This document shows positions 11,003 to 45,000 of a DNA stretch of 63,059 nucleotides, in pieces. Positions within the stretch are counted from its first letter, which is position 1. Each line of letters begins with the position of its first letter. The position numbers and the translations under genes were made by a program. Source of the stretch: an uncultured Butyrivibrio sp. (GTDB lineage: Bacteria > Bacillota > Clostridia > Lachnospirales > Lachnospiraceae); contig CAMVJI010000004.1 of NCBI GenBank assembly GCA_947167765.1, positions 1-63,059 on the forward strand, in the 5' to 3' direction. The notes below the pieces were generated by a model. That model had not been told where the DNA came from and did not search any database. It saw only the letters and a list, made by a program, of their open reading frames with translations.

Positions 11003-12547
11003 TCAACTATTGCCAAGAACAAACCGTTCAACTACTCGTTTTGAATTACACCCATCTCTATACTTCTGCATTTCGTCCATCAGCAAATGTCTTTTGGGTG
11101 CGCTGTTGTCAACATCATTAGATATGTCCTCTATAAACTGACAAAGGTCTTCAAAATTATAGAGCTCTTCTCCCGGAAGATAATCTCGTAATGGCTGAAG
11201 CGCTATTCCTCTGGATCCATCATAAGCTTCAAGATCATTAAGCAAAAATCCCATTGGTCTGTCCAAAGCCAGATAATCAATTGCAACGGAAGAATAGTCA
11301 CTAATAACAGCATCTGCACCTTTAAGCAACTGATTGATATTTAGCATCTTCTTATCTAAATCATCATTCTCGATAAGAATAATATTCTTTGGATTTCCTA
11401 TATTAACTACTTCCCTCTTCTGGAATGGATGGAGCTTTATAACTAATACTTCATCCTTGGCGAAAAGAAGCTCATCCAGCTCTTTCATTTTTTCTATAGT
11501 ATCAACTACTGGTAAGCCTGTAGTCCCTCCCATAGAATACTCATTAAGATTTCCCAGACCGCTTCTGGACTCACGAAAAGTCGGAAGCCAATATATATAC
11601 TTTTTTCCACTGGGTACATCGAAATTCTGGCATAACAAATCTTTATCCGAATTCACAACCCAGTCGGTCTTAGGATTACCTGTCACAACTAACTGCTCAT
11701 CTCTGAGTCCAAACAGATCCGCATGATATCTGGCATATAATTCACCAGAAACTGTCATGTAATCATAACGCCTTTCGCATCGAACGTGATTTACTCTGTT
11801 TTTAAAACCACTTCCATGCCAAAGCTGTACTCTTATCTGGTCAGATCGACAATTGCGGACAAATCCGTAGGCATCTGTGAAAAAAAAGCACTTTGCCAGG
11901 CATAAGTTCTCATAATACTTATCTCTTTGCTCTTCAACATCTGACACCGACCACAAGTATGATATGAATTCTACGTTGGCATATTTCTGATATTCAACAA
12001 ACTTACTTGGATCATATACGAACCATACTAGTTTATGGGATTTATTTAGTCCTACAGATAGCATGTAATCAAAAAGAGCTTTCGCATTATCGCCGAAGTC
12101 CATTCCCTCCACATACTGAGTAACATGAGGGCCACTTCTAAAAACGACAATATTCTTAAGCTCAGTATTTTTGTACTTTTCTCTATAAGAAGCTTCTATC
12201 CTGGCTTCTTTATTCAAAAAATAATAAACGCAGTCTCTATTATTTAACGAAGAAAATGTTTTTAACTCATCAAATAATTCCCTATAAAAATCATCTACAA
12301 TAACTATCGGGTAATCGCTGGTTTCATTATCTATGAGGTATTGTTCTCCACAAACAGAGATTGTCTCATCACCAAGCACTATGTCTTTTTGATCTCTAGC
12401 ATTAGTATTGATAACGCAAAGAATACGTCCATTCATTTTGTAGTCACTGTAAAACTCCTTAAGAATGGACACATCTCTTCCTACGCATATTACTTTCTTG
12501 TCATCATCATGAAGAGATTGGCAATCATCAATGTATGTCAGTTTCAT
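11003..12547 (-). CDS. CDP-glycerol-type glycerophosphotransferase with diverged N-terminal module
   Basis: The 514-residue protein has a Glyphos_transf (TagB/TagF-like) domain from about residue 130: FRSGPHVTQYVEGMDFGD, VQLWHGSGFKNR, VTGNPKTDW, KLHPFQ and ISDYSSVAIDYLALDRP. The histidines in WHG and HPF match the family's catalytic or binding histidines. Such enzymes transfer glycerol- or ribitol-phosphate from CDP carriers onto glycans. Residues 17-115 form a diverged Rossmann-like module (KKVICVGRD..). It is a tandem paralogue of the next gene, with two bases between them. No membrane anchor is seen. Confidence 0.85.
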   Translation of the reverse strand: MKLTYIDDCQSLHDDDKKVICVGRDVSILKEFYSDYKMNGRILCVINTNARDQKDIVLGDETISVCGEQYLIDNETSDYPIVIVDDFYRELFDELKTFSSLNNRDCVYYFLNKEARIEASYREKYKNTELKNIVVFRSGPHVTQYVEGMDFGDNAKALFDYMLSVGLNKSHKLVWFVYDPSKFVEYQKYANVEFISYLWSVSDVEEQRDKYYENLCLAKCFFFTDAYGFVRNCRSDQIRVQLWHGSGFKNRVNHVRCERRYDYMTVSGELYARYHADLFGLRDEQLVVTGNPKTDWVVNSDKDLLCQNFDVPSGKKYIYWLPTFRESRSGLGNLNEYSMGGTTGLPVVDTIEKMKELDELLFAKDEVLVIKLHPFQKREVVNIGNPKNIILIENDDLDKKMLNINQLLKGADAVISDYSSVAIDYLALDRPMGFLLNDLEAYDGSRGIALQPLRDYLPGEELYNFEDLCQFIEDISNDVDNSAPKRHLLMDEMQKYRDGCNSKRVVERFVLGNS

Positions 12548-12549
12548 TT

Positions 12550-14091
12550 TTAATCCTTTGCAATTCCAAGCGCATTAAGTACTCTCAGAGAATTCTTATC
12601 ATCTCTATAGGCATGCATCTTAGCCAGCAGTGCTTTCCTCTTTTCTGCGGCATAATCATCGCCTTCAGCAATAGATCTGATAAATCTCATAAACTCATCA
12701 TAATCATCTATTAACGCTCCTGGCAACCAGTCTCTAATTGGAGAAAATACGAATCCCCTATTTTTTTCGTAGTCATCTGCGTCATCTAATGTAAACGCAA
12801 GCGGTCGGTCTAAAAGTAGATAGTCCACTGCAACAGAAGAATAGTCTGAAATAAGTGCATCAGCATATGCCAGTACTCTGTTTATTGGAACATCCTGGCT
12901 ATTGAGCGTTTCATTCTCTAAGAAAACAATATTCGAGAATTTCTCCTTTGTTACTTTATCCCTGTCCTGAACAGGATGAAGTTTGATCACCATGCAAGTG
13001 TCTACACTCTTAAGATATTCATTGAGCCCATTCATTTGCTCTAAAGTATCTACTACTGGTATACCAGTTTCGTTGTCATAGGCCTTGTCATTAACAATTG
13101 CAATCTTACCAACCGCTGTCCTAAATGTTGGAAGCCAAAAGATATAATGCCCAGCCTTGGGGATATTTAACTTAGAATTCCAATCTTCAATCGGATGATA
13201 AATCCAATCGTCCTTAGGATTACCAGTTACACGAATCTGGTCTTTTCTTACTCCAAGTTCAGAAGAGTGAACTTCCGCATATAACTCACTGGAAACTGTG
13301 TGATACTCACACTTTTCCTCAAATCTGCTCTTTCCAGTCCTTGATTTAAATCCGCTGCCATGCCATAACTGAACCCTTATCTGGTCCTCTCTTGGATATC
13401 TGCAAAATGCGCATGCCTCAGTAAAGAAAATGTATTTTGCACGGCATAACGCGCGATAATATATGTCTCTCTCTTCCTTGTTTTCTGACACAGCCCAATC
13501 AAAAGAGATAAAGTGAACATTTTCATATTTATCTTCGATATGCTTAAACTCAGAAGGATTCTTTACCAACCACACCAACTCATATTTCTTGGTATAACCA
13601 TTTTCAGCCATATATTCAAAAAGAGCCCTGGCATTATCTGCAAAATCCCAGTTCCTAACATAATAAGATGCACCTGGTCCGCTTCTAAACAAAACAAGAT
13701 CAAGTAAAGGACTATCCTTATATATTTCATTGTAGTCCTGATAATATCCAGTATTCTTGTTTACAAAATAGTAAACATCATCGTCAGTCTTCTCCAGAGC
13801 CCCATCTCTTTTCATTGATTCATAGGAATTCTCATAATACCCAGTCGCCAAGATAAAGACTACCTTCTCATTAATATCTGCAATCTTACTGTTGCCGTAA
13901 ACATATAGTTCCTTGCCAAAAACTTCCTTTCGCCCCTGACGTTTAGAGTAATTATCTAGAACAAATTCTGGAAAAGGAAGTGTGGGATACTCGTCGTATA
14001 TTTCCTTCAGATATTCCTCTGAATATCCAGCTATTACAATCTTTTTATTCTCAAGACCCTCTATGTGCTCTTTCCTAAGTCGTACTAGCAT
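12550..14091 (-). CDS. CDP-glycerol-type glycerophosphotransferase, second paralogue
   Basis: The 513-residue protein has the same layout as its neighbour: an N-terminal Rossmann-like module at residues 15-110 (KKIVIAGYSEEYLKEIYDEY), then the Glyphos_transf domain with FRSGPGASYYVRNWDF, VQLWHGSGFKSR, VTGNPKDDW, KLHPVQ and ISDYSSVAVDYLLLDRP. Both copies keep the key histidines, so both are probably active. Two copies suggest either two successive phosphate-linked additions or two acceptors. Regions of difference are mostly in the N-terminal module and the loop after the second histidine motif. Confidence 0.85.
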   Translation of the reverse strand: MLVRLRKEHIEGLENKKIVIAGYSEEYLKEIYDEYPTLPFPEFVLDNYSKRQGRKEVFGKELYVYGNSKIADINEKVVFILATGYYENSYESMKRDGALEKTDDDVYYFVNKNTGYYQDYNEIYKDSPLLDLVLFRSGPGASYYVRNWDFADNARALFEYMAENGYTKKYELVWLVKNPSEFKHIEDKYENVHFISFDWAVSENKEERDIYYRALCRAKYIFFTEACAFCRYPREDQIRVQLWHGSGFKSRTGKSRFEEKCEYHTVSSELYAEVHSSELGVRKDQIRVTGNPKDDWIYHPIEDWNSKLNIPKAGHYIFWLPTFRTAVGKIAIVNDKAYDNETGIPVVDTLEQMNGLNEYLKSVDTCMVIKLHPVQDRDKVTKEKFSNIVFLENETLNSQDVPINRVLAYADALISDYSSVAVDYLLLDRPLAFTLDDADDYEKNRGFVFSPIRDWLPGALIDDYDEFMRFIRSIAEGDDYAAEKRKALLAKMHAYRDDKNSLRVLNALGIAKD

Positions 14092-14103
14092 ATGTGTCCC
14101 CCT

Positions 14104-15012
14104 TTATTTATCATATTTCCTGACAAAGTCTTCTATTGGAAGATACAGATCATCGTATCTCTCGCGAATGACATCATCATCCCAGTTCCACCATTGAATT
14201 CTGTTCAAAGCATCTATCTGCTCTTTTGTATATCTGTATCTAATTATTTTTGCTGGAACTCCAGCCACAATGGCATAGTCTGGAACATCCTTTGTGATAA
14301 TGGCGCCTGCCGCTGCAACAACTCCATTGCCAATATTGGAGTAATTGGTTATGATAACGTTTCTTCCAAGCCATACATCATTTCCTATCGTTATTCTTTT
14401 TCTGGATTCTGCATTAGGATGTGGCTGAACGCCTTCAAAATACCATCGTTTATCTCTATACTGTTCATAATCAGTCGTGTACTCATCCCATACCTGTCCA
14501 GCAAACATCATGGGATGAATGCTGATGTATTGCATCGGATGATTTGGAACCACGTCCACACCCTCGGCGAAGCAGCAGAAATTTCCAATCTTTTTTATCA
14601 GATAATGATTATGCGCTATTGGCCCATAAGAATACTTTCCAACCTCGGTAAAAACTCGTTCATAGTACCTATCAATATTACATAAGTCAATTATTGCTTC
14701 TTCTTTGAAATATTCCAAACATAGATTTCTTAGTTCCTTGTATATTTTAGGATTTATACATGACAAAACTACCACATATTCCTGATCCGATAGTCCCTCC
14801 AAAAATGACAACGGATGGATGCTGTCAATTGCTTTACATAATTGATTATCAAGAACATACGCCGGAGTAATATTCATTTCTTCAATCAGAACGTTTTCCA
14901 CTATGCGGCCAGCATGTCCATAGGGAAAAACCACCAACTTTCTATTCTTGCCTTGCTTTTCAGTCTTTATCGCTTCCTCTAATACCTTTTTGATATCTGC
15001 TCTGTTCATCAT
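14104..15012 (-). CDS. PglD-like two-part acetyltransferase with CatB-type left-handed beta-helix
   Basis: The 302-residue protein has an N-terminal Rossmann-like module at residues 23-115 (RKLVVFPYGHAGRIVENVL..) and a C-terminal hexapeptide-repeat acyltransferase with FAEGVDVVPNHPMQYIS, IGNDVWLGRNVII and AGVPAKIIRYRY. This order is that of PglD-type sugar N-acetyltransferases, whose N-terminal domain binds the nucleotide-sugar; the helix is closest to CatB/LbH O- or N-acetyltransferases. It would use acetyl-CoA in the cytosol, possibly on the amino sugar made by the DegT aminotransferase of the same operon. That substrate is inference. Confidence 0.8.
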   Translation of the reverse strand: MMNRADIKKVLEEAIKTEKQGKNRKLVVFPYGHAGRIVENVLIEEMNITPAYVLDNQLCKAIDSIHPLSFLEGLSDQEYVVVLSCINPKIYKELRNLCLEYFKEEAIIDLCNIDRYYERVFTEVGKYSYGPIAHNHYLIKKIGNFCCFAEGVDVVPNHPMQYISIHPMMFAGQVWDEYTTDYEQYRDKRWYFEGVQPHPNAESRKRITIGNDVWLGRNVIITNYSNIGNGVVAAAGAIITKDVPDYAIVAGVPAKIIRYRYTKEQIDALNRIQWWNWDDDVIRERYDDLYLPIEDFVRKYDK

Positions 15013-15029
15013 CTTTACCCTAAACTAGG

Positions 15030-16178
15030 TTACCAAATGCCTTTATACTCATATTTATCTGCCAACAACTCAATGATAGCCTTTGTCTTATTTGGCCCCA
15101 TTACAATTAAAAATCTGCTCCCTAATGGCACTTCGCCTAAAGTATATAATGGGTATCCCCAACTATTACATTTTTCCCTGCTTCGGTCGCCAGATATAAC
15201 AAACCCTTTTAAATTTTGCATAAACTCCTTGTAATAGCAGAACACTCTTCCAGCCTCTTTGCCCGCTCCATAAATATAAAAAGGCCTTTTAGAACTAAAA
15301 TACTCTATTAAATCTTCTTCCGTTAGCTTTGTACTTGGGATAAACTTGCACTCAGCGATTCTTCTCTCAACCACTTCTCTTTCCACTGGTTCTTCTGGGA
15401 AGCTTTTTCCAAACTCGGATTCATAATATTCCCTAATTAATTGTATCGGATACTTATAGTGTTCCTTAACGTAGTTATAGACAATTGGAAGTTGGATATT
15501 ATTATATCTATCTCTCAATGATCTCTTTTTAAAGATTGGAAGCCCATACTTTATTATGCCCACGTCACCATTATAAAAAATGTCATAAGTATCGCCCTTG
15601 CAATACGCATCAAATGTAAATCCACCATGTTTAAGGTATGAAAATAACCCTCTTTCAAATCCAGCGCAAACCTCATCATACCCAGCTTCTTGTAAGTAGC
15701 TATTTTCTACAAAGAACGAATACAGATTTCTATCTTTCCCTCGAATAACATTTTTTTCAAACACCAAAAAGTATGACTCGATATATTTATAAAACTCTCT
15801 ATTCACATAATGAATTCCCCAAAAATCCACATTCCTTCGGTGAAAATCATCAAACAGCTCCTTCATTGAAACAAACGGACCAAAAAAGCTGTCATTACAA
15901 AATATTACCTCCTCAAACTGTGAAAAAGTGTCTTTGTCAAAATAATGCAATAAAAAATCTGCATAAGCTCCTCCGTCATATCCTCTATTATCTCTAATAT
16001 ACAGCTCTTTATTTGTATACTTCTTAAGAGTCCTTTCTCCTTCTTCGGTGACAAAGCCATTTATAATAAAATAAATATCTACTCCAACAGAGATTAATTC
16101 CCTGCAAAGATGCTCGACATAACCATGAATTCTGCCCTCGATATCATATATCACAAAAAGACAAATCTTCTTACTCAT
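15030..16178 (-). CDS. RgpF-like rhamnan synthesis protein with C-terminal IYGAG module
   Basis: The 382-residue protein opens like the rhamnan synthesis protein F family (ICLFVIYDIEGRIHGYVEHL; IRDNRGYDGGAYADFL; EVIFCNDSFFGPF), cytosolic glycosyltransferases that extend rhamnose-rich wall polysaccharides. Residues 298-382 are a separate Rossmann-like module starting RPFYIYGAGKEAGRVF. Its ATG overlaps the stop of the GT4 gene upstream by four bases (ATGA), showing operon membership. The donor may not be rhamnose; no dTDP-rhamnose genes are in the window. Confidence 0.8.
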   Translation of the reverse strand: MSKKICLFVIYDIEGRIHGYVEHLCRELISVGVDIYFIINGFVTEEGERTLKKYTNKELYIRDNRGYDGGAYADFLLHYFDKDTFSQFEEVIFCNDSFFGPFVSMKELFDDFHRRNVDFWGIHYVNREFYKYIESYFLVFEKNVIRGKDRNLYSFFVENSYLQEAGYDEVCAGFERGLFSYLKHGGFTFDAYCKGDTYDIFYNGDVGIIKYGLPIFKKRSLRDRYNNIQLPIVYNYVKEHYKYPIQLIREYYESEFGKSFPEEPVEREVVERRIAECKFIPSTKLTEEDLIEYFSSKRPFYIYGAGKEAGRVFCYYKEFMQNLKGFVISGDRSREKCNSWGYPLYTLGEVPLGSRFLIVMGPNKTKAIIELLADKYEYKGIW

Positions 16179-17548
16179 AGTTTTTCTACCCTAGCTTCAA
16201 AGGCCTCCATTGAAAAAAACTTTTCATATGTATTTCTAGCACTATCCCTCATTTGGTCGAAGTCTTCCTCATTTGAAACAACCGTTTCAATACATCTTGC
16301 CAAATCCTTTGAATCACCTAATTTAAAGCTCATTCCATCTTTTCCTGGAACCATAAAATCAGATACACCTATCCCATCTGGATAAATGCATATTTTTCTG
16401 TTCATCATTCCTTCAATGATAGAAATACAAAGAGTCTCTGATCTGGATGAACAAATTATCGCATCGAATTGTGGATAAATGTCTTCTATTTCTTTATGTG
16501 TCATACTTCCCAGATATTTCACTGTTGGAAGTTTGCTAATACGCTCCATTTGAGCATTGGTAAAGCTATTATTTGGTGCTCTTCCAATAATCCAGAACTC
16601 GCATTTTGACAAACAATCATCAGTTAGTTGTTCAATCGCATCCAGCAAGATATCGCAACCTTTGATCTTATGAAATCCTCCAACAAAGGCAAAAATGAAT
16701 TTATCATTTTTTACCATTGTTGTTGAAGATGCAAAATCAGGAATTCCTAACGTTAGCAAATCGCATTTCTTATCTGGGTAATAAATCTTAAAATTGTCCC
16801 TTGCCAAATTACTAACCGCAAAGGCTTGGATATTTTCCATTTTTTCCCAAGGAATAAACCCATACTTTTTTTCAAATTCTTTATATATTGACTCACTTTC
16901 ATGTAGCCACCAAATAGTCTTCTTAGATAAACTACACTTTAGTGTATAAAACATAGCTTGATAGGTGTTTATAATAATATGACCAAATTCAACAAACCAT
17001 TCGTACCCGGAAAACTTATGGGTTTCAATAATGGGATCTATTACTAGTTCAATCCCCAATTCTAATACATATTTCGTGATATCCTCACTAGCTCGAGGTG
17101 TTATTATCCTTGTCCTATATCCTTGTTTTTGGTATGCGGATAAAGCATATATCCCTGCTAGCGTTCCCCCATCAAAGTTCATTCTCGTAGTAATCATTAG
17201 TACAGCATCATTACATTCTTTTTTCTCTTCAGGAAGAAAAACCTGTTGCCGTTCACCTGAATACACAATCATCAATTCATCTAGGCTGTAAATTTTACAT
17301 TCATCGACTTTCATGCCTATCAATTCGAGTCTGATTTCATTTACAAAGGTACTGGTTATCACGATATAGTCATAATCAACATCGCGTATCTGTTTTGGCT
17401 GATAAACAGAAAGACCAAAAGCCTCACCACTTAACTGTCCTGCCTTGTTATCCACTGCAAATAGAATATCTAAATCTTGTAAAGCATACAGTTTCTCAAT
17501 ATTCTTTTGTAAATAGCTACCCACTCCAAATAGAATCGCTTTAGCCAT
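16175..17548 (-). CDS. GT4-type glycosyltransferase with N-terminal Rossmann-like module
   Basis: The 457-residue protein begins with a Rossmann-like module at residues 1-95 (KAILFGVGSYLQKNIEKL..). From residue about 115 it is a GT-B glycosyltransferase of the GT4 kind: ITTRMNFDGGTLAGIY near the acceptor loop, FVGGFHKIKGCDILL at the start of the donor half, and the E-x7-E motif in SRSETLCISIIEGMM. It should be a retaining, metal-independent enzyme in the cytosol. Its start overlaps the WbsX gene by eight bases. Confidence 0.8.
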   Translation of the reverse strand: MAKAILFGVGSYLQKNIEKLYALQDLDILFAVDNKAGQLSGEAFGLSVYQPKQIRDVDYDYIVITSTFVNEIRLELIGMKVDECKIYSLDELMIVYSGERQQVFLPEEKKECNDAVLMITTRMNFDGGTLAGIYALSAYQKQGYRTRIITPRASEDITKYVLELGIELVIDPIIETHKFSGYEWFVEFGHIIINTYQAMFYTLKCSLSKKTIWWLHESESIYKEFEKKYGFIPWEKMENIQAFAVSNLARDNFKIYYPDKKCDLLTLGIPDFASSTTMVKNDKFIFAFVGGFHKIKGCDILLDAIEQLTDDCLSKCEFWIIGRAPNNSFTNAQMERISKLPTVKYLGSMTHKEIEDIYPQFDAIICSSRSETLCISIIEGMMNRKICIYPDGIGVSDFMVPGKDGMSFKLGDSKDLARCIETVVSNEEDFDQMRDSARNTYEKFFSMEAFEARVEKL

Positions 17549-19082
17549 TGGTGATCTCCGAAAGGACTTCTGATATGGATACTATATTCCCGATTCTTCC
17601 TAGTTTTTCGAGATTATACTTTATCTCTCCAAAAGAAAATGGTGCAGTAACAATGATAGTCTCGGTTTTGGGAATTACTGAATAGTCAGAATAGACTGTA
17701 ATATCATCCAATATTGGATACTTATTCTTGACTGTCACATTCTTTTCAACCACGTATTCAATTCGAACATTAGCTGATTTCAAACAACGTACTAAATGTC
17801 TTCCTAGTACTCCAAAACCGTAAACAGCAACAACATCACCATATTTATCAGCAATATTCTTGCCTACGTTAACCCCTTCTTCAGACAAATTTAACCATCT
17901 ATCCAAGACTCGTAAATTCGCTTCTGTTCGCTTGTTGAGAATTGAAAGATTAGTATATTTTCCCCCCAGCACTTGCAAGGTCTTATCAAATTGACACTCT
18001 TCGCTTTCAAATTGATCCTTAGCATTCTTTATTGCTTGTAAATACTGATACTTATCGATTTCATCAGGTTCAAGGTACATTCCCTCTCCCCACTCATTCC
18101 AAGCATTAATAAATGTAAAGTTCGCTCCATGCCTGCTGTTTTTTTTAAGTAATTCATATATGTTTCTTTCGTATCGATCTGGAGAAACCCGCGTTATTAC
18201 AGTGCCTTTTCCTCCTCTTCTTGGTGTGTCATCATATCCAGAAAAACCCATAAAATATGGAATAGTATTATATTCTTGCGGTTCTTCAAGCAAACTGTCC
18301 CAAGCATTTTGTCCTTCTACAACGTTTATTCCATTTATTTTATCTTTCTTTATCCTTGCCAATGCTCTTCTAGGGTATCGGTAAATTTGCCCATCTAGCA
18401 CATTGGTCATTTCCTGCCTACATCCTCCTCCAAGAATGAACATTCCTTTAAATCCCGCTTCATATGCAAGTCTGTTCCAACAATCGATCATTTTTCTCAG
18501 GCAACTAATATCTTCTACATTATGAATCACAAATAGAGGTTTTCCATCAACTTTGATATATCGTTCATCCCTAAAAAAAGGCTGTAAGTATTTAAAATGA
18601 TCTTTCCATTCTTTTTCTGATCCGTATTCCTGCTCCAACAGTATTCCATTACTGTTCACTAATTCTCCACTACTGGTTTGTTCATACTTATCTGCCCAAT
18701 GATTACTTGTTCTAATCCCCGACCAAGTCCTAGCCCAAGTCTCATTGGCCCAAGAAAAGCAAAATGGCATATCTACATCTTTCCACTCAAGTAACAATTC
18801 AGCAGGCTTTTCTAAAATTTGTCTGCCATCCTTGAACCAATAATGATAGATACACATACCGTCAATGCCATATTCATGCATGAGTTTGGATTGCCATATC
18901 ATCGAATCCTTGTCTGTCAAGTCATAATAATTTGCATTTAACGGAAGTCTCGGCTGATCATGGCCATCAAACAACGATTCTGCATTCTTAACCGCAACCC
19001 AATCTGTATATCCTTCACCCCACCACTCATCATTTTCTTTTACTCTATGATATTGAGGAAGGTACATCGCAATAATCTTCAT
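17541..19082 (-). CDS. WbsX/GH99-like protein with C-terminal Rossmann-like module
   Basis: The protein has 513 residues from the ATG at 19082, preceded by GGTGGG; an ATG at 19097 has AAGG touching it and is less likely. Residues 1-340 match the WbsX family, with a GH99-like fold: MKIIAMYLPQYH, WGEGYTDW, CIYHYWF, FCFSWANETWARTW and FTFINAWNEWGEGM. WbsX proteins occur in O-antigen and surface glycan clusters and are not proven hydrolases. Residues 417-513 are a separate module beginning VVAVYGFGVLGRHLVRCLKS. With no signal peptide it probably acts in the cytosol on glycan intermediates. Confidence 0.85.
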   Translation of the reverse strand: MKIIAMYLPQYHRVKENDEWWGEGYTDWVAVKNAESLFDGHDQPRLPLNANYYDLTDKDSMIWQSKLMHEYGIDGMCIYHYWFKDGRQILEKPAELLLEWKDVDMPFCFSWANETWARTWSGIRTSNHWADKYEQTSSGELVNSNGILLEQEYGSEKEWKDHFKYLQPFFRDERYIKVDGKPLFVIHNVEDISCLRKMIDCWNRLAYEAGFKGMFILGGGCRQEMTNVLDGQIYRYPRRALARIKKDKINGINVVEGQNAWDSLLEEPQEYNTIPYFMGFSGYDDTPRRGGKGTVITRVSPDRYERNIYELLKKNSRHGANFTFINAWNEWGEGMYLEPDEIDKYQYLQAIKNAKDQFESEECQFDKTLQVLGGKYTNLSILNKRTEANLRVLDRWLNLSEEGVNVGKNIADKYGDVVAVYGFGVLGRHLVRCLKSANVRIEYVVEKNVTVKNKYPILDDITVYSDYSVIPKTETIIVTAPFSFGEIKYNLEKLGRIGNIVSISEVLSEITNG

Positions 19083-19108
19083 AATTCTACCCACCATCCT
19101 TCTATGCT

Positions 19109-23470: not shown

Positions 23471-23474
23471 ATCA

Positions 23475-24744: not shown

Positions 24745-25803
24745 CTATTTCTTTCTAAACCAAAACAATCCCACACCAAAACGCATGTCCCAATTATCAT
24801 ATCTATGGATATCCACGTTTAAATCAAAGCAAATATCCTTTCCTTTCCTTTCAACTCCAGAAAACTCAACTAAATTACACTGACTAAACTTATCAATAAT
24901 TGTTTGAGGATAAAACACCCTGTGGGCATTAAACTCTACTCGTTGCTCTCCTACAGGAACGGAAATAAAAATATTACCTCCAGATTTCATTTTCCTTTGT
25001 AGTCTGTTTATAAACACTTCCCAAGCATCTGGTCTTATAGGATCCCCATATCGTCCTAGTCCAAAATGTTCGATGCTACATATGGCTGAAAAAGAATCAA
25101 TTGAATTATCATCTACATTTTCTAGTTCAGTAGCATCATCCTGAATAAAATGCATTCCTTCCACAAGTGTATCCAATGGTCTGACATCAATAACATTAAC
25201 TTCTATATCCGCTGCCAAAAGGGTTGAAACAAAACCATTAATCCTACTTCCAACATCCCAGTGACTTTTTACCTTGCTGGCAATTATTCTTTTGGCCGCC
25301 CATAAATCCTGCCAAAAGTAAAAGTCAACATCTCCTGCACTTGCATACTTTTCTCGAACAATTGGATACAGATTTCTTTCATGTATATCGAAAGAACTGT
25401 CCTTATTCTCTTTGCTGTACTTTGCGATGTCTTCATTTAATAATTTCGCATCTACCATCCCATATTCATTGTAGTAACGATACAACGTTTTCTCAGATAG
25501 AATTGAGTTAATTCTCTCGTCATCATTAAATATGCGAAATCGTCTTCCTGGTTTTAAAAAAACCACTTTTTCATAGTCTATGCCCTTATCTTCAATAATA
25601 CGAAAAGCCTCGTCTGTTGCCATGAACGCACATATGATAAAGTCATAATCATCTGGAATAGTGTCAAAAGAAAAAACTCTATAACCTCTATATTCACTAA
25701 TGGTTGGGGTTGTTTCTAAATATCCAACTATATCAGCTGTAATTCCTTCACTAAATATTCTTCGTTCATAGCTCCCTGTTCCCCAAATAATTACCTTACT
25801 CAA
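24745..25803 (-). CDS. DUF268-like methyltransferase with N-terminal Rossmann-like module
   Basis: The 352-residue protein starts at TTG, behind GGAGG at six bases. Residues 1-95 are a module opening SKVIIWGTGSYERRIF. The rest matches DUF268-type SAM methyltransferases: WDVGSRINGFVSTLLA as the SAM-binding loop, VIDVRPLDT, FIQDDATELENVDDNSIDS, CSIEHFGLGRYGDP and VPVGEQRVEFNAHRVF. Such genes are found in surface glycan clusters. Sugar O- or N-methylation is the likely role, by inference. Confidence 0.8.
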   Translation of the reverse strand: MSKVIIWGTGSYERRIFSEGITADIVGYLETTPTISEYRGYRVFSFDTIPDDYDFIICAFMATDEAFRIIEDKGIDYEKVVFLKPGRRFRIFNDDERINSILSEKTLYRYYNEYGMVDAKLLNEDIAKYSKENKDSSFDIHERNLYPIVREKYASAGDVDFYFWQDLWAAKRIIASKVKSHWDVGSRINGFVSTLLAADIEVNVIDVRPLDTLVEGMHFIQDDATELENVDDNSIDSFSAICSIEHFGLGRYGDPIRPDAWEVFINRLQRKMKSGGNIFISVPVGEQRVEFNAHRVFYPQTIIDKFSQCNLVEFSGVERKGKDICFDLNVDIHRYDNWDMRFGVGLFWFRKK

Positions 25804-25830: not shown

Positions 25831-27093
25831 TTATTGTTCTCCAGCCGCTATTACCCTCCAAATATCTGTAACATCACACCTGTCACAATTAACATCACTC
25901 AATTTCAAAAAGAATTCTTTCAAATCGCGTTTTAAACATTGATTGCCTTCTACTGTAACATAGCTCTCTTCATCTTCAACTATCCCCAAATCATACATGC
26001 TCGCTGCTCGAGCACAGGAAAATACTTTTCCCTCTAGTACAGTTTTACAATAATAACTTGATGGACATCTGTTATAAATATCTAATAATTGTTCTAGGCT
26101 CCTACCTCTAGAATTAATATCTCCAGAATCAATCCAGCTTAGTTCTGATATTTCCTCAAACCGCACTCCATTTAAAAACAATGTTTCTTCCAACTCATCG
26201 ATTCTTGACGAAACTTCATATCTACTTATCCTCACAGTAACTTTTGGGTTCTTAAGAACATCCAACACCTCATTTTTAGGGATTACTGTGCCATTAGTTG
26301 TAATTTCTATACCCCAAATATTATCAATATCTACCACATAATTGATTACATCCTTTAAATATGGGTAAACAAATGGTTCACCACCGATCAGTTCAATGGT
26401 GATTATTTTGTCAGCCGCTTCTGACAAAGCTCGAATATCCCGAAGAACAACATCTAGTTCAACATGCTTAGGATGATCATATCTATTCATCAAATTATTA
26501 CAATGACGACACTTTAAAGAACACATTCTTGTCAATTCAAAAACCATACGCGGAACAACAAGTTTGTTCTCGTCTAAAACTTCGCTTAAACTATTACTAA
26601 CTATTCTGGAACCAAATTCACTTTCTGGATCAATGCCTCGGCGTGTCAAATACTGTTTAACACAATGCTCCACTGGTTTTAATAATCTATTTTCGTAACA
26701 ACTACCTTTTTTGGCAGTTCGCCTATCACCAATCCATATTATCTTCTCTCGTGGAACACCTATACTGATGAGAAAAGCATGTATTTCCTTAGCTTTTCCC
26801 ATTTCAGAAACGGCGATTACAACGAAATCAAAGCTAATTTGTGTTATCTGTACTGGATCACATACATCAATCCCCCATGTATTCCACTGTTGATAGCACC
26901 GATCTACCCAGGCAATGACATGGCAATATTTACTATCTTCTATTTGCTTGTGATAGGCTTGACCAACATCCCCAGCCCCATACAACACTATTTGTGAGCC
27001 GTATCCAACTTGAGAAAATGGGAATACCCAGTCCTTTTCAAGCTTATATTTTCCTTCGTAATTCTCAAAATTATTTCTGTACATAGCCACCAC
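25831..27093 (-). CDS. Radical SAM/SPASM protein with N-terminal YGAG module
   Basis: The 420-residue protein has a module at about residues 33-130 (SQIVLYGAGDVGQAYHKQIE), then a radical SAM domain with CSLKCRHC as the CxxxCxxC cluster ligand and LIGGEPFVYP. A C-terminal SPASM-like region has further cysteines (CPSSYYCKTV, VFSCARAASM, CDRCD) for auxiliary iron-sulfur clusters. Family members modify peptides, cofactors or sugars. In a glycan operon, radical epimerisation or C-C chemistry on a sugar or peptide is possible but unproven. The start is GTG at 27093 or, equally possible, ATG at 27084. A sigma-28-like box lies about 80 bases upstream. Confidence 0.85.
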   Translation of the reverse strand: MVAMYRNNFENYEGKYKLEKDWVFPFSQVGYGSQIVLYGAGDVGQAYHKQIEDSKYCHVIAWVDRCYQQWNTWGIDVCDPVQITQISFDFVVIAVSEMGKAKEIHAFLISIGVPREKIIWIGDRRTAKKGSCYENRLLKPVEHCVKQYLTRRGIDPESEFGSRIVSNSLSEVLDENKLVVPRMVFELTRMCSLKCRHCNNLMNRYDHPKHVELDVVLRDIRALSEAADKIITIELIGGEPFVYPYLKDVINYVVDIDNIWGIEITTNGTVIPKNEVLDVLKNPKVTVRISRYEVSSRIDELEETLFLNGVRFEEISELSWIDSGDINSRGRSLEQLLDIYNRCPSSYYCKTVLEGKVFSCARAASMYDLGIVEDEESYVTVEGNQCLKRDLKEFFLKLSDVNCDRCDVTDIWRVIAAGEQ

Positions 27094-27174: not shown

Positions 27175-27201
27175 ATATCGGTATCAACCCATATTTCTTA
27201 C
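27175..27201 (-). promoter_or_regulatory. Sigma-28-like promoter inside the glycan operon
   Basis: The 218-base gap upstream of the radical SAM gene is the longest gap within the operon. Read on the minus strand it has GTAA (27198-27201), exactly 15 bases, and ACCGATAT (27175-27182). The same ACCGATAT with N15 spacing occurs upstream of flaG, and TTAA-N15-NYCGATAW recurs at the other flagellar promoters here. The -35 box has one more mismatch than the flagellar ones. The link to the motility regulon is inference. Nothing else was recognised in the gap. Confidence 0.45.
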
Positions 27202-27311
27202 TTAACCCCTTCGTCATGAAGAATCCCTTTAACCATCTACAATCAGGTCAAATAGAAATATAAAATCACACTTGTGTTTTTCATTATTATCTACACAAAC
27301 ATAATTCAGAT

Positions 27312-28397
27312 TTACAGATTTCTGTGATACATTCTTAAAAACAGCTCTTCCAATTCATATTGTCCTTCAAACATCACTTCTGATTTCTCTTCAAAACTTA
27401 CTGATTCTTTTCCATGATCGACAATTTCACTAATGCGCAACTTAATATCATTATTCTTATATTGCCAGTGAATCAATTTGATTGCATGAGCATCATATTC
27501 ACTAATTTCTAACATGATTGGATTTCTATCTGATACAGCATAATATGTGTTTTTATATCGTATAATATTCTGAAATCCCAAATCCGAGGAGACATTACCA
27601 TTCTCTGCTTTCAAATCAATTTGTGTAATGAAATTTGATGATAAACTAATTACATAAGCAATATGTCCATATACTGGTAATAATAACAACTCATCTTTTA
27701 TCAACAGGCTTGCCACACAACATACATTCTCAGCTCTTTTTCCAAAGTTCATCATCTCGTACTGGTTTAATTTGCTATCGTATATGACAAGTCCATCTTC
27801 TAATGAAAAAGGCACGAATGCTTTCTTATCTCCCCACGTAGCATGAATTGAATATTTCTCAACATTAAACGGCATCTCATGTGAGTTAATCCTACCCAAT
27901 TTTAAGTCAATTCCATACAAGACATTCTCTTTGCCAGGCAAACATAGTATTTCATCATTAACAGTCGCAAATCTTCTATGCTTATAATCAATTAAGCTTT
28001 CTTTCCCATCCAGCTGATATCTTGTAACGCTTCTACCTTCTAAATCAAGTATAAAAATAGAAGTCCCTTCAATCGGCAACAAGTATACAGCGTTTCCAAC
28101 TCTAACAGTCTCAGTTTTTGTCAGGCCAATAGGCTTCTCAATATAACTCATGTCATTAGTATCGACATCATATATTGCTATGTTAGAAGCCTCCCATGGA
28201 ATAAAAAATATACTTCGCTCATACACATATGCTTTATAGTACAAAGTAGCTATTTTGTATTCATGAAAAAAATACTTTTTAAAGTGTATTTCACATGTTG
28301 CGAAATCATACACATATAACGCATTATCGTATTGACAAGCAAAATACATTTTATCATCAACTATCTCTGCTGCCATTCCATAAACTGTTTTTTCCAT
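27312..28397 (-). CDS. Putative beta-propeller protein of the glycan operon
   Basis: The protein has 361 residues from the ATG at 28397, which has GAGGCGGGG upstream; a TTG at 28412 is less likely. It consists of repeated short beta blades with the pattern hydrophobic-strand, Tyr-Asp turn (ALYVYDFATCEIHF; NIAIYDVDTNDMSYI; SIFILDLEGRSVTRY; LVIYDSKLNQYEMM), suggesting about seven blades of a WD/Kelch-like propeller. No catalytic motif, signal peptide or accessory module is visible. A scaffold or glycan-sensing role is speculative. Confidence 0.6.
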   Translation of the reverse strand: MEKTVYGMAAEIVDDKMYFACQYDNALYVYDFATCEIHFKKYFFHEYKIATLYYKAYVYERSIFFIPWEASNIAIYDVDTNDMSYIEKPIGLTKTETVRVGNAVYLLPIEGTSIFILDLEGRSVTRYQLDGKESLIDYKHRRFATVNDEILCLPGKENVLYGIDLKLGRINSHEMPFNVEKYSIHATWGDKKAFVPFSLEDGLVIYDSKLNQYEMMNFGKRAENVCCVASLLIKDELLLLPVYGHIAYVISLSSNFITQIDLKAENGNVSSDLGFQNIIRYKNTYYAVSDRNPIMLEISEYDAHAIKLIHWQYKNNDIKLRISEIVDHGKESVSFEEKSEVMFEGQYELEELFLRMYHRNL

Positions 28398-28408
28398 GTT
28401 TCCCCGCC

Positions 28409-29965
28409 TCAATCACATATTAGTAGCGCTCTATCATATTTCATTAAATCCCCAAAAAGAATAATTGCATTGCCATCCACGCAATCTAATTCCATCAATT
28501 GTTGTTTCATCTCATAACTATATTTTGTACTAGAGATAATTATTGTATAGTTAGTAATCGTACATAAATAGTCAACGGAAAATATGTCTACTCCACGTAA
28601 TTCCGTATACCAACGAGTCTCATCATTATCAATGTACGCATCAACCGATACATTTATACTATGTAAAAAGTCAAGACACTTATCTCCATCTTTTCCCGCC
28701 CCAAATATGATTGTTTTATTTAACTTCTTCCACAATGCAATTTTTTTTCGAATAACATCGACTTCTTCACTAAAATCTGGTAAAGCTAGCTGCTTTTTTA
28801 CTATGATACCTGTTTCTTTTTCCACATCATAGTATTCTTTTTCCGATGATGATGTATTGAACTTCTCTATCATAGCGCTAATTCTCTCATCCGAATTAGG
28901 AGTTCCAATTAACGCAATTCTGCTATTCAAAAAACTCTTTGTTATTAGAACATCGTCGATTAAATCCTCAATTTTATACTGCAAATTATCAGCTCTATGA
29001 TATAACAATTCATCTGATCCACACGTATATCCTAGCACCCCATTAGCCATGCAGTTTTCTGCATCAATTACGATAACAGGAACTTTTTCTCGACTAGAAT
29101 AATTAGCAGCACCTGAACCAGCAAGTACAACATCTACTTTATCAAACAAGATTTTTGGTATTGGTACCATATCCCCCAGCAGAAGAACTTTTACATTTGG
29201 CAATACCATCAACTTTTCCGAAATAGCTTTTATCCGAACTTCTGCATCACCCACCATAATAAATTGTATAGACTTATCAGTATGTCTTAATGCAAACTCT
29301 CTTACCGCTCTAATTACAGCGGGAACATATTTTTTGTGAGCTCTCCCAATATAGGCAATATTGAATTCTGATTTATATATTCTATCCACAACTGAATTAC
29401 TAACTTCTTGAATAGGATTCCCTTCAGTCGCATAAATCTTATAATCTAACGCATTATCTACATGTAAATACCCCTCAAATAATCTATTGATATCTAAACT
29501 AAATAACTCTCCTCTATAGTACTTAAATTTAAAAAAGTCTATATACTCTTCATAGCATAATCCATGTCCTCTAAAAACTTCAGATACATCAAAACATATC
29601 ATTCTACCATTCATTTTCTTAGCAAAATACTCTGCCCAGACAGACATATTGTTATTGTATGATCCTATCAATATTTCCTCATAGTCATCAGGCTTAATTC
29701 CTATATTATCCAATACATGATTGTAAATCACTTCTAATTGCTCTGTGACCAATTCAGCAGGCTTATAGTTTAAGAAAAGCAAATTGCCTCCGTCCAAAAA
29801 TGGATTTAAACTATCAATCATACACTTACCCAGCGCACGGCCATGATGAATAACTCTTACATCCCAGTTTTCTCTATTATCAAAATACCTTACTATTTCA
29901 CTAGTAAACAATTGATTACCACCTATAGGATGGATATCAGTTGTGAATATCATGTATAAATTCAT
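28409..29965 (-). CDS. GT-B glycosyltransferase with C-terminal FGAG module
   Basis: The protein has 518 residues from the ATG at 29965; a longer frame to 30010 adds a Lys-rich leader without a better site. It opens like GT4 enzymes (MIFTTDIHPIGGNQLFTSEI), has FNIAYIGRAHKKYVPAVIRA at the start of the donor half, and DVVLAGSGAANYSSREKVPV in place of the usual E-x7-E helix, so the retaining motif is altered. Residues 417-518 are the module KTIIFGAGKDGDKCLDFLHS. Its stop overlaps the TTG extension of the propeller gene. Activity is likely but the family assignment is loose. Confidence 0.7.
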   Translation of the reverse strand: MNLYMIFTTDIHPIGGNQLFTSEIVRYFDNRENWDVRVIHHGRALGKCMIDSLNPFLDGGNLLFLNYKPAELVTEQLEVIYNHVLDNIGIKPDDYEEILIGSYNNNMSVWAEYFAKKMNGRMICFDVSEVFRGHGLCYEEYIDFFKFKYYRGELFSLDINRLFEGYLHVDNALDYKIYATEGNPIQEVSNSVVDRIYKSEFNIAYIGRAHKKYVPAVIRAVREFALRHTDKSIQFIMVGDAEVRIKAISEKLMVLPNVKVLLLGDMVPIPKILFDKVDVVLAGSGAANYSSREKVPVIVIDAENCMANGVLGYTCGSDELLYHRADNLQYKIEDLIDDVLITKSFLNSRIALIGTPNSDERISAMIEKFNTSSSEKEYYDVEKETGIIVKKQLALPDFSEEVDVIRKKIALWKKLNKTIIFGAGKDGDKCLDFLHSINVSVDAYIDNDETRWYTELRGVDIFSVDYLCTITNYTIIISSTKYSYEMKQQLMELDCVDGNAIILFGDLMKYDRALLICD

Positions 29966-30039
29966 GTTTTCTTTACCTTCACATTTATTTCCTTCTTTAT
30001 TTAGCGCCACGATTATCTACACATCAAACGCATATCTGT

Positions 30040-30225
30040 TCATAATAAATGAACAAATACGACAACCTCAAATCGAACAGAACCCTCCTGACTTATAAAT
30101 CCTTTTAATGCATCCTCAATATATAGGCATTGCTTAAATGTGGCTCGCCAAATAGATACGTCTATTGGTTCTTTATCGTTTAACGTATTAATTTCATCTA
30201 CAATGATGCTTTTAACCATATACAT
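30040..30225 (-). CDS. Small 61-residue protein of unknown function
   Basis: The frame fills an otherwise unexplained 312-base gap, 52 bases after the cyclodeaminase-like gene and 74 bases before the glycosyltransferase start. GGTGG lies nine bases before the ATG. The peptide begins MYMVKSIIVDEINTLNDKEP, has a central SIWRATFKQCLYIEDALKGF and ends in a hydrophobic FEVVVFVHLL. No family is recognised. It could be a small partner protein, the remnant of a larger gene, or a peptide substrate of the radical SAM enzyme in the same operon. None of these can be decided here. Confidence 0.4.
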   Translation of the reverse strand: MYMVKSIIVDEINTLNDKEPIDVSIWRATFKQCLYIEDALKGFISQEGSVRFEVVVFVHLL

Positions 30226-30277
30226 TTTGTCGAACCACCAAAAGTACTAATTCTTCAAATACATAGAATCAATCCAG

Positions 30278-31285
30278 TTAAAAAACGAACGGCATCCCCA
30301 ATCCATTTTCTTTACATTTTTCATAAACATAATTAGCAATTGCGACATCTATATTGGCAAGTCCAACAGAGCAAAAATATATAAACTCATTTCGATCCTC
30401 TCGACTTTTTTTTCTTCCAACTATTAAGTCTTCAAGATTTGCGTAAATATTTGAATCGTCTATTAGCCCTTCTAAATACATCCTACTAAGTGTCTGGCTT
30501 CTCTTCTTTACACTATTCCAATCATCACAAACTATTTTAGACGCCATTTGCGCAACCGCATATTCATCTTCCCACCCAGCAACATGTATATATAACACCC
30601 CGCCATCTTTGTTAATCCATCTAGACTTTAAAATATCTGATTGACCACTAGTCGCTGTAATTATAATGTCTGCACCACAAACAGCAGTTTCATAGTCACT
30701 TCCGCAAGGCACAAAGTTGATATCTGGATGTAACGCTTTCTCTTCTTCTATAAAGCTGGCTACCGTCTTAGTTGAACGCGATGAAACATAACACGTTTTT
30801 ATATTCGGACGTACCAATTTTAATAAATCAAGATGTCTTCTGGCTTCTTGTCCTGCGCCTATAAAACCTACAATCTCGGAATCTTCCCTCGACAGGAACT
30901 TCGCAGCTAATGCCCCAACAGCCGCCGTCCTGATTGAAGTCAAATAGCCTGCATCCATTATTGATAAGGTATGTCCATATTTCAGCTCAGAAATGATGAT
31001 AGTTCCTGTTACATTTTTATATCCAAATCTTGGATTATCTGGAAACACAGACACCCACTTAACTCCACATAGTTCACTGGATTTTAACACTGCCGGCATA
31101 CAATTGATCCTGCTTTGAGTTTTCTCATCAAATATCATAGATACTTTTGGGGACAGAGTTTCTTGTCCATCAGCCTTCAGGCAAAAGAATTTTTCTACCA
31201 CCCTTAAGGCATCTTGGTATCCATCATTAAAAATTTGTTTTTGATCTTCGCACGAAATTAGCAATGTTTCTTGAGGGTTCGGCAT
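30278..31285 (-). CDS. Ornithine cyclodeaminase/mu-crystallin family protein, SbnB-like
   Basis: The 335-residue protein shows the family layout: an N-terminal substrate half (PKVSMIFDEK, GVKWVSVFPDN), the LSIMDAGYLTSIRTAAVGAL segment, then the NAD fold GFIGAGQEARRHLDLL. Relatives include ornithine cyclodeaminase, ketimine reductases and SbnB, which makes 2,3-diaminopropionate. It has AGGAGA before the ATG. Next to ATP-grasp and aminotransferase genes, it may supply an unusual amino acid that is ligated to a sugar amine. That role is inference. Confidence 0.8.
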   Translation of the reverse strand: MPNPQETLLISCEDQKQIFNDGYQDALRVVEKFFCLKADGQETLSPKVSMIFDEKTQSRINCMPAVLKSSELCGVKWVSVFPDNPRFGYKNVTGTIIISELKYGHTLSIMDAGYLTSIRTAAVGALAAKFLSREDSEIVGFIGAGQEARRHLDLLKLVRPNIKTCYVSSRSTKTVASFIEEEKALHPDINFVPCGSDYETAVCGADIIITATSGQSDILKSRWINKDGGVLYIHVAGWEDEYAVAQMASKIVCDDWNSVKKRSQTLSRMYLEGLIDDSNIYANLEDLIVGRKKSREDRNEFIYFCSVGLANIDVAIANYVYEKCKENGLGMPFVF

Positions 31286-31324
31286 TTATGTCTCCTATAC
31301 GATCAGCTTTCTGTAATTAGTCGA

Positions 31325-32356
31325 TCAAACAGCAAAAAGAAAAAATCTTGATGGCATACAGTCAACAAATCTCATATATAACTTGTAGTCTTGTCGAATT
31401 TCTTTAAGTAGCAACGGAATAGTAAACAATTCTTCTTTAGCACTTCCTAAGAAAATAACCATTTTAGGTTTGCATGATGAAATAATATCTTGAGCTCCCA
31501 AAAGAATTTCCCGCTGAGCTACAGATACTCCTAAATTTATTAGCGATATCTCTTTTGATCCGATTATATTATCTAGCTTATCTACTTCGATTTTGGTTTG
31601 CCCTTCATCACTTAATCTAGAAATCTTGTCATCCGAATCAAAGCTTAAATAATCATGCTTATTCCAGCACCCAACGTTATATAGCTCCGCATCAATTTGC
31701 CACTTATCCAAGTTCTGTTTAAGTTTCAGGAAATTATCACTATCTGGTTCTATCGCTACAATCCGTTTATATTTACCTTCGCAAGCATTAGCAAAGTCTT
31801 TAACACTTTTTCCTTGAAAAGCTCCAACTTCCAAGAAAGCCTCCTTATCTCCCAACTGAATAACATCATTAGCAAAATACTCTCTCTTAGAATCAAACAC
31901 ATCTCTCACATAAGAAACTGATTCAAGAGAAACTGCACTAATGAAAGCCCTAAACATGTGAACAGACAATTCGTCCTCCAAAAGCCTTTCTGCCTCACAT
32001 AACACTTCGGAATTGGCTTCAACCCACTCTTTTCCGAAATGCGCATGATGATCAAAAGGTAATGCTAATTCTATGACTTTATCAAAATCCCCCTGTTCAA
32101 CCAATTCATTATATTTTGCATATCCACCAGCGTACCCTATAATCAGTAATTTCTTTTTGTGGCCACTTTCAATTATTTGCTTCATTGTATAGACAGATTG
32201 TTCACTATCACTCAATATGTCGTCCACAATAAAACCATCTACAGTAATATCTTGCGACAAAAGCTTCCTGTAAAGGTATTGTCCTAAATTCCCAGCTCCG
32301 TATATATATTTTCTCCCTTTATAATTTTTAATTACCAATAATAACTCATTATCCAT
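31325..32356 (-). CDS. FkbM-type methyltransferase fold with N-terminal IYGAG module and altered motif
   Basis: The 343-residue protein has a module at residues 15-105 (RKYIYGAGNLGQYLYRKLL) and an FkbM-like half (DKEAFLEVGAFQGKSVKDFA for SAM; RIVAIEPDSDNFLKLKQNL; VDKLDNII). The usual FkbM segment of the type IKMDIEGAE is replaced by SLINLGVSVAQREILLGAQD, so the acidic residues normally found there are missing. It may be inactive as a methyltransferase or act on a different substrate. AGAGGA lies nine bases before the start. Confidence 0.75.
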   Translation of the reverse strand: MDNELLLVIKNYKGRKYIYGAGNLGQYLYRKLLSQDITVDGFIVDDILSDSEQSVYTMKQIIESGHKKKLLIIGYAGGYAKYNELVEQGDFDKVIELALPFDHHAHFGKEWVEANSEVLCEAERLLEDELSVHMFRAFISAVSLESVSYVRDVFDSKREYFANDVIQLGDKEAFLEVGAFQGKSVKDFANACEGKYKRIVAIEPDSDNFLKLKQNLDKWQIDAELYNVGCWNKHDYLSFDSDDKISRLSDEGQTKIEVDKLDNIIGSKEISLINLGVSVAQREILLGAQDIISSCKPKMVIFLGSAKEELFTIPLLLKEIRQDYKLYMRFVDCMPSRFFLFAV

Positions 32357-44993: not shown

Positions 44994-45000
44994 ATTTATT

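Follow-up and report, generated by a model that had tools for sequence, protein, structure and literature searches.

The described domains closest to the element considered here are Rossmann domains of four kinds: PglD_N (PF17836), the N-terminal domain of the NeuD/PglB/VioB group; C2185-like_N (PF22674; structure 2g6t, which we take to be CAC2185); the CoA_binding_3 domain (PF13727) of WbaP and PglF; and the NADH-binding domain of Rex. To our knowledge, C2185-like_N is a one-domain family that is not known as a pathway-wide add-on. The element itself is a Rossmann-like module of about 80 residues, detected by sequence profile at one end or the other of twelve proteins of a single glycan operon in a 63,059-nucleotide stretch of DNA from an uncultured Butyrivibrio sp. 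(Lachnospiraceae; GenBank assembly GCA_947167765.1, contig CAMVJI010000004.1, positions 1 to 63,059 of the forward strand). This stretch is hereafter the window; coordinates refer to it unless a comparison locus (L) is named, and genes are denoted by their first coordinate. In the acetyltransferase Pcryo_0637, whose N-terminal domain is of the PglD_N kind, two neighbouring aspartates lie at the ribose and the uracil of the bound uridine diphosphate (UDP)-sugar (PMC8040287). The related domain of WbaP makes a dimer contact and is stabilised by uridine mono-, di- and triphosphate (UMP, UDP and UTP), and the full-length enzyme is inhibited by UMP with an apparent half-maximal inhibitory concentration of 4.1 µM (PMC10942596). 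Whereas the WbaP/PglF domain lies inside membrane-anchored enzymes, the module is mostly found on proteins without a hydrophobic segment and in clusters without genes for lipid-linked export.

The operon also resembles described flagellin glycosylation islands in its position beside flagellin genes. The type B flagellin locus of C. difficile includes genes for an ATP-grasp protein, an ornithine cyclodeaminase-like protein and an FdtB-like aminotransferase (CDR20291_0245-0247; PMC5207246, with an overview in PMC10889297), and genes of the same three Pfam families are present in the window. Flagella of Pseudobutyrivibrio ruminis OR77 are reported to be glycosylated, and an island-like arrangement has been noted for Butyrivibrio proteoclasticus (EPSL3/EPSL4) (PMC2914790). 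Unlike our operon, neither the C. difficile nor the B. proteoclasticus island is credited with a shared accessory module in the accessible portions of these reports (PMC5207246, PMC2914790). The open-access literature yielded no description of a comparable pathway-wide accessory module, subscription papers lying outside the search. The pathway-wide use of the module appears to be new, although the domain itself belongs to a known Rossmann group.

Copies of the module in the window

All genes from 34768 down to 8574 lie on the minus strand, and the Pfam families assigned to most of the module hosts and their neighbours comprise glycerophosphotransferases, RgpF, glycosyltransferases of families 2, 4 and 10 (GT2, GT4 and GT10), WbsX, DUF268, radical SAM, ornithine cyclodeaminase (OCD), FkbM, ATP-grasp, DegT and IspD. 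A preliminary description of this DNA had claimed eleven clear copies of the module at particular genes and ends, together with three diverged ones. The positions, as delimited here, are these:

32063..32326, minus strand: module, N-terminal, in the FkbM-like protein 31325-32356
28451..28732, minus strand: module, C-terminal, in the GT-B-like protein 28409-30010
26728..27006, minus strand: module, N-terminal, in the radical SAM protein 25831-27093
25552..25803, minus strand: module, N-terminal, in the DUF268/methyltransferase-like protein 24745-25803
24396..24671, minus strand: module, N-terminal, in the GT10 protein 23475-24701
22148..22423, minus strand: module, C-terminal, in the GT2 protein 22136-23545
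20754..21023, minus strand: module, C-terminal, in the GT2 protein 20697-22115
19139..19399, minus strand: module, C-terminal, in the GT4 protein 19109-20674; the segment modelled below, with the preceding helices, is 19112-19525
17571..17846, minus strand: module, C-terminal, in the WbsX protein 17541-19097, preceded by the same tryptophan-containing segment as in free-standing modules
17282..17548, minus strand: module, N-terminal, in the GT4 protein 16175-17548
15033..15296, minus strand: module, C-terminal, in the RgpF-like protein 15030-16178
14719..14940, minus strand: diverged module, N-terminal, in the hexapeptide acyltransferase-like protein 14104-15012
13813..14016, minus strand: candidate diverged module, N-terminal, in the glycerophosphotransferase 12550-14091
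12275..12463, minus strand: candidate diverged module, N-terminal, in the glycerophosphotransferase 11003-12547

The eleven clear copies were borne out in two ways. Leave-one-out profiles were read for ten of them (all but 20697), and each held-out module ranked directly below the ten training modules and above every other open reading frame (ORF) of at least 100 residues, the weakest being 15030 (expectation value E 0.0034) and 17541 (E 0.0005). A profile of 485 modules that contained no window sequence, built from loci originally found with the window-built profile or its finds, matched the eleven with E values between 7e-21 and 1.6e-7, and 14104 with E 3e-5. With this profile, these twelve were the top twelve of the 73 window ORFs and scored at least 13.9 bits, against 7.3 bits for the best of 1,460 shuffled ORFs; the next ORFs were 42711 (E 0.011) and the short-chain dehydrogenase/reductase (SDR) gene 9254 (E 0.013). 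Identity of the other modules to that of 25831 is only 13-32%. In the whole source genome (79% complete), all 11 matches at E<=0.01 fall inside this operon.

At the level of sequence profiles, therefore, 12 of the 14 claimed copies are confirmed, including one of the three diverged copies (14104); the other two, 11003 and 12550, were not recovered by the 485-module profile (E 0.021 and 1.2). A profile that includes the 12 window modules gave E 1.8e-4 for 11003 and 0.005 for 12550, with the SDR gene 9254 at E 0.011. When the N-termini of 11003 and 12550 were aligned by hhalign together with three close homologues, the probability was 93%, compared with 89.5% for a generic SDR Rossmann control, which is not a convincing margin, and it reached 97% with six sequences, two of which have detectable modules. 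Seven more distant homologues carry detectable N-terminal modules (L084 6472, L105 2649, L105 6552, L098 1773, L098 5573, L086 2680 and L092 126), and no module is detectable in the closest ones (L105 10328, L149 13790 and L150 13927). A decayed copy of the module in 11003 and 12550 is plausible.

Profile searches also bore out the claim that the precursor enzymes of the operon (33650, 32402, 30278, 10251 and 9254) lack the module:

30278..34768, minus strand: precursor genes without the module, namely ornithine cyclodeaminase-like, ATP-grasp and DegT aminotransferase; the module-bearing gene 31325-32356 lies between them
9254..11006, minus strand: precursor genes without the module, namely SDR epimerase/dehydratase-like (9254) and IspD-family cytidylyltransferase (10251)

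In passing, the ORFs 22136-23545 (GT2) and 23475-24701 overlap by 71 bases, and the GT2 gene probably starts at an internal ATG.

Fold and family of the module

The profile of 110 modules (set A3; 110 of 158 eligible modules) was compared with solved structures and matched 3nkl (1.9e-12), Rex (2.2e-10), 2g6t (5.7e-9), VioB (4e-6) and WbaP (2e-5). The best match, 3nkl, is named UDP-D-quinovosamine 4-dehydrogenase and presumably belongs to the WbaP/PglF cytosolic domain family. Taken singly at E<=0.01, 35 of the 110 modules matched PglD_N, 25 C2185-like_N and 14 CoA_binding, and, among other family models, 76 matched NeuD/PglB/VioB and 16 the C-terminal domain of C-methyltransferases. The AlphaFold2 model of the 19109 C-terminus consists of helices followed by a Rossmann domain, with a mean predicted local distance difference test score of 90.3 and a predicted template modelling score of 0.82; fold comparison of this model returned many tied Rossmann domains, including Rex, 2g6t, 3nkl, MurD, succinyl-CoA synthetase, KefC and WbaP. 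The features of the Rossmann nucleotide-binding superfamily are present: the beta-alpha-beta fold is seen in this one model and its fold comparison, and, of 241 modules, 98% conserve the aromatic residue ahead of the glycine-rich loop, 96% and 88% the first and the second glycine, and 82% an acid (D or E) after strand 2.

No Pfam family reached its cut-off on the extra 80-100 residues of the window hosts. The module shares with PglD_N the Rossmann domain, the glycine loop and the D after strand 2, and it can be aligned with VioB, but the best window module scored 15.6 bits against the PglD_N cut-off of 23.4 bits, the matches in 19109, 22136, 23475 and 25831 lay below it, and no protein of the source genome exceeded it. 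In addition, the module hosts are mostly not hexapeptide acyltransferases: among the 12 confirmed hosts, only 14104 has a hexapeptide match (E 0.0076, below that model's own cut-off). For C2185-like_N, window proteins scored at most 13.9 bits against a cut-off of 27 bits, and there was no match at E<=0.01 in the source genome; the same search matched no control genome either. PF13727 is neither among the Pfam matches of the window proteins nor among the 25 families listed for the 110 modules, although the 110-module profile does match WbaP and 3nkl. Unlike Rex, the window hosts show no winged helix or other DNA-binding domain, the Pfam domains found in them being those of enzymes. By profile and predicted structure, the module is a new branch of the known PglD-N/WbaP-DUF/Rex/C2185-like Rossmann group.

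This kinship raises the possibility that the module is an allosteric nucleotide sensor, the cleft of which would bind UMP, cytidine monophosphate, UDP or a nucleoside diphosphate (NDP)-sugar and tune the module's own enzyme to precursor supply or by-product build-up; the restriction of the module to one kind of pathway would then reflect a shared supply problem of flagellin decoration. A sensing role is considered because the closest solved relatives (3nkl, Rex, VioB and WbaP) are of nucleotide-binding kinds and because the motif is conserved; the behaviour of WbaP, whose domain is stabilised by UMP, UDP and UTP and which is inhibited by UMP (PMC10942596), points the same way, as does the tendency of modules to stay with one host family (see below). 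Yet all five scored motif positions are intact in only 53% of the 241 modules and in 38% of the N-terminal ones. The residue after the strand-2 acid varies (N 34%, S 22%, K 14%, R 10%), whereas its equivalent, as aligned by eye, reads uracil in the related acetyltransferase (PMC8040287). Furthermore, V replaces the usual D after strand 2 in 7 of 8 non-redundant RgpF-attached modules, and the second glycine is kept in only 23 of 54 non-redundant free-standing modules. Because the acid is lost in the former, the second glycine in the latter and the base-contact residues are variable, one universal ligand is disfavoured. Free-standing, membrane-anchored copies also fit intramolecular sensing less easily, and we regard the sensor explanation as less likely than not, although it and the recruitment described below are the two best-fitting explanations.

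A related explanation, which we rate as improbable, takes the module to be a substrate-holding arm of the kind known from PglD-type acetyltransferases: it would grip the nucleotide of an NDP-sugar and leave the sugar to be acted on by the adjoining domain. The N-terminal domain of Pcryo_0637 is a UDP platform of this kind (PMC8040287), the NeuD/PglB/VioB and C-methyltransferase matches listed above accord with such a role, and 14104 is similar in architecture. However, radical SAM enzymes, methyltransferases and glycosyltransferases that have their own donor sites make up many of the hosts, the occurrence of the module at either end and as a separate protein is ill-suited to one fixed geometry, and WbsX, described below, lacks the module in 20 of 29 cases.

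Distribution, host enzymes and evolution

The preliminary description had viewed the module as an operon-wide tag. It is not confined to this operon, since it recurs in other genomes of the phylum, and its fold, as shown above, is of a known nucleotide-binding kind. At E<=1e-4, the window-built profile found matches in 25 of 61 genomes (the source genome, 36 others from its genus and 24 from its order). In the phylum, 32 of 398 genomes had matches (source genome included; E<=1e-5; no more than twelve candidates per genome scored), and in both scans several modules often share one locus. An iterated profile built on the window and 40 loci converged on the 241 modules, of which 112 are N-terminal, 103 C-terminal, 20 free-standing and 6 internal. 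A further scan with a free-standing module as query, which favours free-standing copies, yielded 39 named loci with 275 modules, 61 of them free-standing, from Butyrivibrio, Pseudobutyrivibrio, Enterocloster, Blautia, Agathobacter, Eubacterium, [Clostridium] aerotolerans, Lachnospiraceae, Clostridiaceae and unclassified isolates; the count of 275 includes L139, L144 and L166, which repeat L077, L087 and L086 and are omitted from pooled counts.

The range of hosts is broad. Pfam comparison at E<=1e-5 linked the 107 representative module proteins (of 121 selected) to 62 families, several of which overlap within one fold; among the 25 host families listed are methyltransferases, FkbM, radical SAM, RgpF, GT2, GT11, GT-D, WbsX, LicD, pyruvyl transferase and FrhB-type proteins. 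Together with the profile results, this supports the earlier view that enzymes unrelated to one another carry a homologous added domain, at either end.

The idea of a single interchangeable operon tag did not hold up: no operon-specific similarity code was seen, and host families keep their own end and lineage. In 182 of 421 cases, a module and its nearest module have homologous hosts, compared with 6.7% for random pairs, and in 344 of 497 they are at the same end (178 expected). With host classes assigned for 195 of the 497 modules (the window host classes), the module is C-terminal in 97 of 100 GT2-like hosts and in all 9 RgpF hosts, and N-terminal in all 14 radical SAM hosts and all 12 GT4 hosts of the 16175 kind. 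We read this sequence pattern as a probable old acquisition by each host family followed by occasional shuffling.

That shuffling happens is indicated by 17 of the 1,179 pairs with at least 45% identity, which reside on non-homologous hosts, some at opposite ends. Such exchanges and the great divergence of the modules could suggest that there is no specific function at all, the module being an aid to solubility or folding, or else a neutral fusion disseminated through gene shuffling in fast-evolving islands. Conservation of the motif across divergent sequences, the fixed end in each host family and the all-or-none split of WbsX loci described next run counter to this proposal, which appears quite improbable.

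The module follows flagellar-locus clusters in the WbsX comparison

If the module were a standard accessory domain of each enzyme's own family, it would be expected wherever that family occurs, and modules do track host families. WbsX, the one host family surveyed in full, does not conform. Among 150 family genomes, 25 contain WbsX, with 29 ORFs in all; 7 of these ORFs bear the module (one being that of the window), 2 (L112 and L116) have it as an overlapping separate gene and 20 lack it, two of the latter (L131 and L138) being cut by a contig end. In addition, 46 of 348 module-less genes not beside a free-standing module have a module-fused homologue. The standard-domain explanation is, accordingly, very improbable.

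Twenty WbsX loci of 11.5-19.5 kb each, covering 21 of the 29 ORFs, were compared; outside them lie the window's own ORF and the module-less ORFs of genomes G473, G538, G547, G507 and G506 (three in the last). Membrane segments were called here and throughout by a simple hydropathy scan. None of the seven loci with modules (3-12 each) has a protein with at least 6 hydrophobic segments, as opposed to 12 of the 13 loci without a module (p 1e-4). Likewise, WbsX and a flagellin gene share a contig at a distance of no more than 50 kb in 6 of 7 loci with modules and in 0 of 13 without, several contigs being short and 4 of the 13 module-less genomes having no flagellin match. Genome G534 has both kinds of WbsX locus. 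The comparison thus suggests that what the module accompanies is not the enzyme family but clusters at flagellar loci without lipid-linked export. Among the other module loci, only 1 of 76 (L156) has a protein with at least 6 hydrophobic segments. In the window, the hydropathy scan gave no sign of genes for lipid-linked export (flippase or polymerase): no gene of at least 100 residues in the greedy gene set has two or more hydrophobic segments.

Beyond WbsX, flagellin was found in all 34 chosen genomes with module clusters (the source genome, 32 with analysed loci and G034; G209 was omitted), within 50 kb of the cluster in at least 22. Across the phylum, it was present in 31 of 32 module-bearing genomes compared with 242 of 366 others (Fisher 9e-5), with flagellin distances and module-bearing membership read by eye from match coordinates. 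For a pathway-wide role, the flagellar-locus restriction seen in the matched WbsX comparison is stronger evidence than any in the preliminary description. In the window, the glycan genes adjoin the flagellin and FliD genes, and we infer that the window flagellins are glycosylated.

Free-standing copies

Because free-standing copies exist, the module is separable from the enzymes. Many are proteins of 130-180 residues that consist of a hydrophobic stretch, a tryptophan-containing segment and the module, and the tryptophan-containing segment also precedes the module in 19109 and 17541. A hydrophobic segment is present in 43 of 76 free-standing copies, compared with 44 of 416 fused proteins. Among module-less enzymes directly upstream of a free-standing module, 18 of 41 have module-fused homologues, 15 of them with the module at the C-terminus, against 10 of 27 directly downstream and 46 of 348 elsewhere (Fisher 9e-6 for 18/41 vs 46/348). 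Sequence set A6 comprises 86 of 107 listed segments and 2 window segments. Examples include the WbsX gene L070 6761-7846 with the module 6346-6756 and the 19109-like GT4 gene L170 6798-7964 with the module 7971-8453.

A possible role in recruitment

The descriptive part of the account can be stated with high confidence: the modules are homologous, have a Rossmann fold, are attached to many families at either end, occur as free-standing and often anchored copies, and, in the loci compared, belong to clusters near flagellin without flippase- or polymerase-like proteins. What they do is a more tentative matter. We propose that a mobile Rossmann module of ~80 residues, accompanied by a tryptophan-containing helix in many C-terminal and free-standing copies, is attached to the late enzymes, those that build the glycan, in glycosylation clusters at flagellar loci. 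Most likely, these clusters glycosylate flagellin in the cytosol and use no lipid-linked intermediate. The module would then serve as a pathway-specific assembly subunit paired with its own enzyme, and module-module or module-partner contacts would bring the enzymes to a common site, which might be flagellin, a flagellin chaperone, the export gate or, through the anchored copies, the membrane. By analogy with the distant WbaP domain, a nucleotide in the cleft probably gates or stabilises the contact.

Recruitment is preferred because of the pathway restriction, the free-standing anchored copies and the attachment at either end. That a fold of the nucleotide-binding type does the recruiting, probably in a ligand-gated manner, is argued by analogy, and we hold it with a little less than even confidence. 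A more far-reaching version, which we offer as a tentative possibility, is that the module is a pathway-identity domain that recruits late cytosolic flagellin-glycosylation enzymes of any fold, that the anchored free-standing copies tether them, and that one switchable site at the flagellar export gate would thereby be formed by a dozen or more soluble enzymes. The docking domains of polyketide and peptide synthase assembly lines are small, appended and separable; the module is alike in these respects, but no partner-specific pairing code was seen for it.

Several observations weigh against recruitment in flagellar-locus clusters. On the side of similarity, a private docking code would predict more than the mean of 0.086 found between modules of the same operon on different host classes, as compared with 0.081 between operons, and modules whose nearest neighbour belongs to the same operon number 17 of 497 (7.1 expected), a weak excess. 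With regard to flagella, 12 of the 34 genomes have no flagellin within 50 kb among the matches listed, the gene being on another contig or further off and some contigs being short; within the genus, flagellin does not discriminate, since it is present in 39 of 42 genomes, 36 of those 42 having no module match; and L156 combines modules (only two) with three multi-span proteins. As for the free-standing copies, 33 of 76 lack a hydrophobic segment; 30 of 58 start no more than 10 bases after the upstream gene, compared with 193 of all 495 same-strand neighbours, which is only mildly unusual; and the profile search found no free-standing copy in the window. Finally, the 6 free-standing copies adjacent to WbsX show no greater similarity to WbsX-fused modules than the 70 others do (p 0.70), and therefore the split pairs are taken as similar arrangements, not as proven fissions.

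The recruitment proposal touches on the question of how soluble enzymes that build protein glycans stay together, ordered and apart from other polysaccharide pathways. A domain found on dozens of enzyme families, which separates flagellar from lipid-linked glycan clusters in a matched comparison, provides a handle on this question. As a candidate sequence marker, it could point to flagellin glycosylation islands in gut Lachnospiraceae and elsewhere in the phylum, and it may be a transplantable part for glycoengineering. More generally, the module would extend the proposal, made for WbaP, that nucleotide-binding domains of one kind control several glycoconjugate enzymes.

Neighbouring genes and other observations

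The remaining features of the window are one gene inside the operon and the flagellar genes on the same strand:

27312..28412, minus strand: protein without a Pfam match inside the operon, described earlier as a beta-propeller
44073..46174, minus strand: two flagellin genes (44073 and 45236), ~12 kb from the nearest module
47370..57549, minus strand: FliD (47370), a large flagellin-like protein, two FlgK-domain proteins (53940 and 55846) and a glycosyltransferase-like gene (49636)

The sole relative of the 27312 protein among the searched loci is a weak match, L075 91-1203 (locus region 91-1717), followed after 4 bp by a free-standing module that is strongly hydrophobic at its N-terminus. The flagellin-like protein near the two ordinary flagellins (51686-53782) comprises 698 residues and has a long middle part. 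Three LicD-family genes flank the module operon (5260-7005, 36066-38075 and 38991-39935), none of which is among the module matches. There are two IspD-family cytidylyltransferase genes, 10251-11006 within the operon and 4509-5231 beyond it. The product of 7006-8028 has a weak match to the PD-(D/E)XK nuclease family and a C-terminal run of EQGI-type repeats. At the edge of the window, the gene 272-1237 encodes a Nitro_FeMo-Co (dinitrogenase cofactor-like) domain and an FKBP-type isomerase domain in one protein, a pairing that looks unusual.

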